From NCBI RefSeq assembly GCF_009733845.1, contig NZ_WNXZ01000001.1, forward strand, positions 434,001-498,000: a stretch of 64,000 bases of DNA, given 5' to 3'. Both the position numbers and the translations under genes were made by a program. Every line of letters starts with the position of its first letter. The first letter of the stretch is position 1. Below the pieces are notes generated by a model that was not told the origin of the DNA, searched no databases, and was given only the letters and a program-made list of their open reading frames with translations. Below are positions 55,299 to 55,440 of this stretch, piece after piece. The stretch is from Pseudactinotalea terrae (GTDB lineage Bacteria > Actinomycetota > Actinomycetes > Actinomycetales > Beutenbergiaceae).

Positions 55299-55304
55299 TA
55301 GAGT
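55299..55304 (+). promoter_or_regulatory. -10 hexamer TAGAGT of the leuA promoter
   Basis: TAGAGT lies 7 bases before the leader-peptide ATG, so transcription should begin at or next to that codon. It is identical in sequence and spacing to the element at 6065-6070. Confidence 0.55.
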
Positions 55305-55311
55305 GTTGGGC

Positions 55312-55359
55312 ATGCGGACGACGCAGCTCCTCCTTCGTCGCCGCGGCGAGGCCCACTGA
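55312..55359 (+). CDS. leuA leader peptide
   Basis: 15-codon open frame MRTTQLLLRRRGEAH ahead of leuA. Three consecutive Leu codons (CTC CTC CTT) followed by three Arg codons are the hallmark of leucine-attenuator leaders. It starts at the predicted transcription start (TAGAGT 7 bases upstream), so it would be translated as a leaderless peptide. The hairpin arms at 55341-55379 begin inside its last codons, so a ribosome stalled at the Leu codons would change the RNA fold. Too short to identify by homology. Confidence 0.75.
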   Translation: MRTTQLLLRRRGEAH

Positions 55360-55379
55360 GGCCGGCCTCCTCGCCGCGG
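55341..55379 (+). promoter_or_regulatory. Attenuator-like hairpin upstream of leuA
   Basis: Perfect 11-base arms CCGCGGCGAGG (55341-55351) and CCTCGCCGCGG (55369-55379) with a 17-base loop. A competing palindrome GAGGCCGGCCTC lies at 55358-55369. The two folds share bases and cannot form together, and the leader peptide's stop codon lies in the loop. No T-run follows, so it may act by termination without U-tract or by blocking translation. Confidence 0.65.
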
Positions 55380-55440
55380 AGTCGCCTGGTGCCCGGCCAC
55401 CGGCAACGACCGCCCAGCGCGGAGCACAGGAGCAGCGAGC

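Follow-up and report, generated by a model that had tools for sequence, protein, structure and literature searches.

The segment immediately upstream of leuA in the window (the whole 64,000-nucleotide stretch of Pseudactinotalea terrae DNA analysed here) is probably a LEU element, in the form of a leaderless attenuator that senses leucine and acts on the translation of leuA. Comparative signs indicate that it contains a real and functional leucine leader, whose frame, start spacing, leucine run and near-fixed spacing are conserved among the sequences compared, and whose counterparts elsewhere have sensor codons that vary with the downstream gene. Three helices, referred to as S0, S1 and S2, covary between genomes, as supported by the same comparison. 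Leaderless translation attenuation is the mechanism best supported by these data, although it is not proved, and we infer from them the transcription start, the ribosome stalling, the release of the Shine-Dalgarno site and the role of the pseudoknot.

All of the features of the window described here are on the + strand. A presumed leaderless promoter is represented by a -10 box, TAGAGT (55299–55304), recognized by its sequence and by the conservation of TANNNT, and is followed after 7 nt by the ATG (55312) of a 15-codon leader ORF, MRTTQLLLRRRGEAH (55312–55359), with a TGA stop codon at 55357–55359. The frame reads ATG CGG ACG ACG CAG CTC CTC CTT CGT CGC CGC GGC GAG GCC CAC TGA, and the three successive leucine codons (CTC CTC CTT, Leu-Leu-Leu; 55327–55335) form a conserved run that we regard as the sensor codons. 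The initial annotation had described a 15-codon frame with three successive leucine codons starting 7 nt after TAGAGT, and the sequence confirms this. The presumed regulated gene is leuA (55441–57186), coding for a 2-isopropylmalate synthase of 581 aa whose best matches in the named genome collection are the LeuA proteins of Oceanitalea and Georgenia (78% identical); its Shine-Dalgarno site, AGGAG, is at 55428–55432. The gene upstream of the leader (54059–55291), with a product whose C-terminal part we take to be FHA-like, stops 7 nt short of the -10 box, and any -35 region would therefore be inside that gene. A consensus scan of 55200–55460 found no sigma-70-type promoter with both hexamers, and TAGAGT is without a -35 partner. 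Searching positions 50000–60000 of the window with the Rfam 15 covariance models gave 11 matches, all below the gathering score and none at the leader, and a plasmid search returned one Nonomuraea record, covering 35% of the query at 82% identity.

The base stem, S0, is predicted to pair GCTCCT in the leucine codons (55326–55331) with AGGAGC (55428–55433), which contains the leuA Shine-Dalgarno site, and both covariation and the minimum-energy fold support it. S1 is a perfect 11-bp inverted repeat of CCGCGGCGAGG (55341–55351), inside the leader ORF, with CCTCGCCGCGG (55369–55379), and is supported by covariation as well as by the repeat itself. S2, 6 bp long in the window and supported by covariation, pairs GGCCGG (55360–55365), directly after the stop codon and in the S1 loop, with CCGGCC (55393–55398). 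Because S2 joins the S1 loop to the downstream segment, the two helices would together form an H-type pseudoknot. The folding energy of the leader RNA in the window is no better than that of shuffled sequences (z of 0.18 for 55312–55455 and 1.50 for 55360–55455), and we have rejected it as evidence. Ribosomal frameshifting by the pseudoknot was also considered, because of the 5-nt spacer ahead of it, and was set aside as no slippery heptamer was evident by eye.

These features correspond to those of the LEU element, predicted in 2005 before leuA in most Actinobacteria by Seliverstov, Putzer, Gelfand and Lyubetsky (PMC1262725). The leader ORF with a leucine run ahead of an actinobacterial leuA, the base stem between leucine codons and Shine-Dalgarno site, and the pseudoknot within the base stem are all present in the window, and on the parts named in the published text the window element belongs to the LEU class. 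The novelty that had been claimed for this leader does not hold, as the element was already described in that paper and a leaderless LeuL before leuA has been reported in Streptomyces lividans (excerpt of PMC8079986). The latter, LeuL1 of S. lividans TK24, MRFGLLLLSCRGEGL, was observed by RNA-seq to be leaderless and without a typical terminator before leuA (same excerpt). The leuA leader of Corynebacterium glutamicum has likewise been described by RNA-seq (PMC4046766, in part), and no start site could be assigned to that of C. diphtheriae according to an excerpt of PMC5784534. As described in these excerpts, which give no tested mechanism, all three are short leucine-rich leaders before leuA, as in the window; they are from other organisms, and those of S. 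lividans and C. glutamicum are based on RNA-seq.

The leuA set used for comparison comprises 110 loci (80, a further 29 from relatives, and the window's own), or 109 when the one locus with no upstream DNA is set aside; L002 (not leuA), L005 (no upstream DNA) and L070 (a frame with no -10 box) were left out before the counts. A short leader frame is present in all 109 loci with upstream DNA, the window included, and 108 of these have at least two adjacent leucine codons, the exception being L105 with Leu-Val-Leu. Similarly, TANNNT is present 6–11 nt ahead of an in-frame ATG or GTG in 108 of the 109, L070 being the one with a frame and no such box. Among 108 leaders the start codon is ATG in 88 and GTG in 20, and in two loci of the same genus (L083 and L084) a GTG is at the position corresponding to the window's ATG. 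The last leucine codon is CTT in 104 of 108 leaders, and the spacing from the leucine run to the hairpin is 5 nt in 105 of them. A start codon with a -10 box within 60 nt of the leucine run is found in frame in 107 of 108 leaders, the two out-of-frame counts being 3 and 5, although this control was done on 108 chosen rows and the in-frame count is partly a product of that selection (one locus having been removed). The elements are related by descent, and these counts are thus not independent of one another. The start codon, the -10 spacing, the frame, the leucine run and the hairpin are nonetheless conserved in relatives, and refutation of the proposed leader by non-conservation fails.

Genomes of the window's class and family were searched with a covariance model derived from 74 of the elements. 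In the class, 379 of 393 genomes have a match at E ≤ 1e-4, and in the family 23 of 24, including that of the window, have one at E ≤ 0.05; the one family genome with no match (G003) is fragmented, and only a piece of its leuA was found. Twelve of the fourteen class genomes that lack a match at E ≤ 1e-4 belong to four families (five in f100, three in f90, and two each in f105 and f6). An earlier model, applied to the whole phylum at E ≤ 0.01, matched 60 of 296 genomes, with 35 of these in the class and 25 outside of it. Six of the 25 outside matches are strong (E < 1e-6), and all six are before leuA (L124, L127, L128, L141, L159 and L160).

Covariation was assessed with a swap test, in which a strand from one genome is set against the opposite strand of the helix from another, over 2000 swaps. 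The 108 rows were cut by redundancy to 49, with 47 available for S0 after L009 and L017, in which the leuA start is unclear, were dropped. The observed mean was reached in none of the 2000 swaps for S0 (n = 47), S1 or S2 (n = 49 for both), and in 973 and 550 of 2000 for two negative-control pairings. When swaps were made only within clades (n = 70), as set by hand from record titles and kinship labels, it was reached in none for S2, none for S0, 6 for S1, and 570 of 2000 for a control. For S1, pairing holds in 95.7% of the cells of a MAFFT alignment of the 49, in which 5 of the 11 pairs are changed on both sides, a number reached in 1 of 500 shuffles; the number of further pair types in this alignment is not above that of shuffles (156 of 500). 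The model-fitted alignment of 74, which is biased toward structure, has 97.3% paired and 7 of 11 pairs changed on both sides, which no shuffle of 500 attains. S2 takes quite different sequences in relatives, including GGCCGAC/GTCGGCC, GACCGG/CCGGTC, GCCGTC/GACGGC and GATCGAC/GTCGATC, and it is shorter than 5 bp in five of 108 rows (L008, L017, L072, L074 and L079). Shuffling of each row's own downstream part is a weak test for S2, with values of 5% or less in only 38 of 108 rows, because G+C-rich regions pair easily, and the between-genome swap test was used for this reason.

These results do not favor the pair of mutually exclusive hairpins proposed in the initial annotation, in which the 11-bp hairpin competes with a nested palindrome, GAGGCCGGCCTC (55358–55369). 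Both of the inverted repeats are present, and three pairs of the minimum-energy fold lie at the margin of the palindrome. However, the palindrome is present in only 1 of 108 leaders, which is the window's own, it shares only a single base with the 3′ arm of S1, and as an RNA hairpin about four of its bases could pair. Moreover, the GGCCGG within it is the pseudoknot strand, which covaries with the downstream strand at 55393–55398 instead, and the stem that is able to hide the leuA Shine-Dalgarno site is the one formed with the leucine codons themselves. We regard competition between these two hairpins as extremely improbable.

A different partner for the leuA Shine-Dalgarno site could be provided on the side of the 3′ arm of S1, where CCTCCT (55366–55371) is complementary to AGGAG. 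This would constitute a classical sequestor/anti-sequestor arrangement, with a terminating ribosome covering the 5′ arm of S1 such that the CCTCCT side pairs with the Shine-Dalgarno site, and with stalling at the leucine codons allowing S1 to form and freeing the site. There is a swap signal for this pairing, reached in 1 of 2000 swaps overall and 24 of 2000 within clades, but it is weaker than that for S0, for which no swap of 2000 did so in either test. Sequestration by the S1 3′ arm as the sole switch is possible though not likely, and this pairing may occur alongside S0 rather than instead of it.

Termination of transcription in the leader must also be weighed against translation attenuation through S0. 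An intrinsic or Rho-dependent terminator would end the leader transcript unless prevented by a stalled ribosome, an arrangement that is classical for actinobacterial trp and leuS leaders (PMC1262725), and leuS in the same genome has a leucine leader followed by a hairpin with six T residues. However, a scan of 55200–55460 found no terminator-like sites, and TTTT is present within 15 nt past the hairpin in none of the 108 leaders and anywhere as far as leuA in only three of them. The Shine-Dalgarno site is also part of a covarying helix, S0, and termination thus seems an unlikely basis for control of leuA. The perfect 11-bp hairpin that overlaps the end of the frame and has no U-tract after it is as initially annotated, and the comparison supports the accompanying proposal that a translated, probably leaderless leucine leader attenuates leuA without an intrinsic terminator.

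We note that the leuS gene of this genome (NCBIfam TIGR00396; C7:400396–400474, outside the window) has its leucine leader, MRFRLLLI, 6 nt after TACGAT, with the T6 hairpin downstream, and has the appearance of a classical transcription attenuator. The layout is identical in two genomes of the same genus (L285 and L286). This leuS leader and the classical leuS attenuators of Streptomyces (PMC1262725) resemble the leuA leader in using the leucine codons of a short leader as sensor, but differ from it in that leuS of the window's genome has a hairpin and T6 and leuA has no such site.

A translation attenuation mechanism acting through S0 could operate as follows. Transcription is presumed to begin at or beside the first base of the leader start codon, and a ribosome loading at the 5′ end of such a transcript would need no Shine-Dalgarno site. 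With ample Leu-tRNA the ribosome would reach the leader stop codon and depart, following which the leucine codons, acting as the anti-Shine-Dalgarno strand, would pair with AGGAGC to form S0, and leuA would be poorly translated. With scarce Leu-tRNA the ribosome would halt on the leucine codons and mask that strand of S0, leaving the Shine-Dalgarno site of leuA free. When the last leucine codon is in the ribosomal A site, S1 starts at about the point of mRNA entry, and the pseudoknot of S1 and S2, located 5 nt past that codon, would probably be a barrier there, keeping the ribosome over the sensor codons. The pseudoknot may also, or alternatively, bring the distant leuA start near to the leucine codons such that S0 is able to form.

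We modeled the effect of a blocking ribosome on folding, without the pseudoknot, for 43 leaders in which the leuA Shine-Dalgarno site could be assigned. On average, the probability that this site is unpaired is 0.22 in the free RNA, 0.44 with the ribosome at the first leucine codon, and 0.26 with it at the stop codon, and the first-leucine value is greater than the stop value in 35 leaders and smaller in five. In the window the corresponding values are 0.03, 0.27 and 0.22, and the difference between the stalled and terminating states is small. If the leucine codons are both the sensor and the repressing strand, then altering them should free leuA at any leucine level, and paradoxical mutants are to be expected, as a codon change also breaks the repressing stem. 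This dual role would fit the odd S. coelicolor mutants of Craster et al. (1999), whose changes in the leuA leader, on the account given in PMC1262725, acted in a way at odds with classical attenuation.

LEU elements are not confined to leuA, and they also precede leuC, genes for LeuA-dimer-domain proteins and small-protein/leuB loci, with many genomes having two or three elements. In 38 genomes picked for having more than one element there are 83 places, 82 of which were retrieved; the remaining one is the leuA element of L097. These 82 include 37 at leuA, 15 at leuA paralogs, three at leuC, 23 of the leuB type, one at a LeuA-dimer gene, and three without a clear target (L262, which is at a contig end, L272 and L282). 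A further 20 places include five at leuC, two of the leuB type, seven at leuA or paralogs, four of the dimer type, and two that are unclear (L151 and L161). Targets were identified with NCBIfam for one leuB and one leuC, and for the others by tblastn to such references. Searches of the open-licence literature listed no report of a LEU element before leuC, leuB or LeuA-dimer genes, and the 2005 paper describes the element before leuA, together with one in a transposase gene (PMC1262725). The present analysis differs in adding placements at leuC, leuB/small-protein and LeuA-dimer loci, the last two with changed sensor codons.

The elements with leucine codons directly ahead of leuC are in L143–L146, L148, L205, L241 and L264. 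Those with Leu/Val codons (L154, L155, L156, L158 and L281) are ahead of small proteins that resemble only the allosteric (dimer) domain of LeuA, PF08502; of the four that were scanned, two score above the cut-off of Pfam, and L155 is the weakest, having a sub-threshold match only. In one genome of the same family (L282) there is a weak element-like match (38 bits), with leader MTEWLILRRRVRT, before what appears by eye to be a transporter-like gene, and this may be a chance occurrence.

The identity of the sensor codons corresponds closely with the type of target. Valine or isoleucine is present at the final three sensor positions in 1 of 145 leuA elements (among which a species may be represented twice), 1 of 22 leuA-like elements (a set containing three ordinary leuA genes, L152, L159 and L160), and none of eight leuC elements, but in 24 of 25 leuB-type and all five dimer-type elements. 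L280, a locus in which we found no leader frame, is probably the single leuB-type exception. All three of the leuB loci examined continue to ilvE, a gene used for leucine, isoleucine and valine alike. The second elements retain S1 and S2, with covariation in both (59 elements, with the observed value reached in 0 of 2000 within-class swaps for each), and S0 is marginal, the numbers of 2000 swaps reaching the observed value being 80 for leuA-like, 70 for leuC, 201 for dimer and 93 for small-protein elements.

The change of codons bears on the question of what senses leucine. The 2005 paper left the mechanism open, but as leader mutants had behaved oddly it preferred a bound protein, with an ML1624-type helicase as candidate, and considered a mechanism through leader translation improbable (PMC1262725). 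In such a scheme a regulatory protein would bind the pseudoknot and the Shine-Dalgarno stem, and leader translation would not be the sensor, which is consistent with the strong conservation of the pseudoknot and with the published leader mutants that do not match classical attenuation, in the account given in PMC1262725. However, a protein site does not explain the preponderance of in-frame starts with a -10 box (107 of 108, against 3 and 5 out of frame), nor would it need a switch from leucine to valine or isoleucine codons with the target while S1 and S2 are kept. As the sensor codons follow the product of the pathway and the RNA scaffold is unchanged, we argue for a translating ribosome as the sensor, and consider protein binding quite unlikely.

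The leuB-type elements, with Val/Ile/Leu codons, are located before a tiny gene that precedes leuB (L142, L147, L224, L227, L239, L240, L255, L258, L263, L273 and others). Its product is ~20–45 residues long with the core ALQEAMDRRDNGGE, and the gene is conserved between the element and leuB in 22 of 25 loci. An alignment of 16 examples has invariant A, Q, D, R and G residues, and seven that were scanned have no Pfam or NCBIfam match. At E ≤ 0.01, searching with the 16 proteins yielded one match each in 53 of 148 class genomes, some few of which are weak, and none in the window's genome; the tiny gene is not in the window. At 16 retrieved places with the tiny gene, leuB is downstream in 13, and a leader with a -10 box is present within 420 nt upstream in only one (L303), indicating that it can be present where no element is visible. 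Inspection by eye suggests a separate leaderless promoter for leuB at several loci.

Translation attenuation of cysteine genes in Mycobacterium smegmatis is referred to in an excerpt of PMC13236596, citing Canestrari et al. (2020), leaderless uORFs in mycobacteria are described in an excerpt of PMC4633059, and NdgR is a further regulator of the genes considered here (PMC4340878, in part). As presented in these sources, the leaderless poly-cysteine uORFs of mycobacteria are like the leucine leader in being leaderless sensor uORFs, and unlike it in reading cysteine instead of leucine. We know of no LEU-type pseudoknot associated with the mycobacterial poly-cysteine uORFs.

On balance, we lean slightly toward the view that the LEU element is a single modular RNA device, re-used across the Actinomycetota and composed of a leaderless sensor uORF, a 5-nt spacer, an H-type pseudoknot, and a sensor-codon stem that hides the next start. 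It would be placed before leuA, leuC, free-standing LeuA-dimer-domain genes and genes for the small protein described above, with its codons re-tuned from Leu to Val/Ile/Leu according to the target. If this is correct, then one architecture reads different amino acids through the exchange of codons, and the small protein takes part in branched-chain amino acid regulation while being controlled itself at translation. The comparison points to further targets and supplies a covariance model for an element present in 379 of the 393 class genomes; in the window, no family of Rfam 15 scores for this element. As leuA is a control point of leucine production, such a switch would be useful for amino-acid producers and for antibiotic-making actinomycetes.
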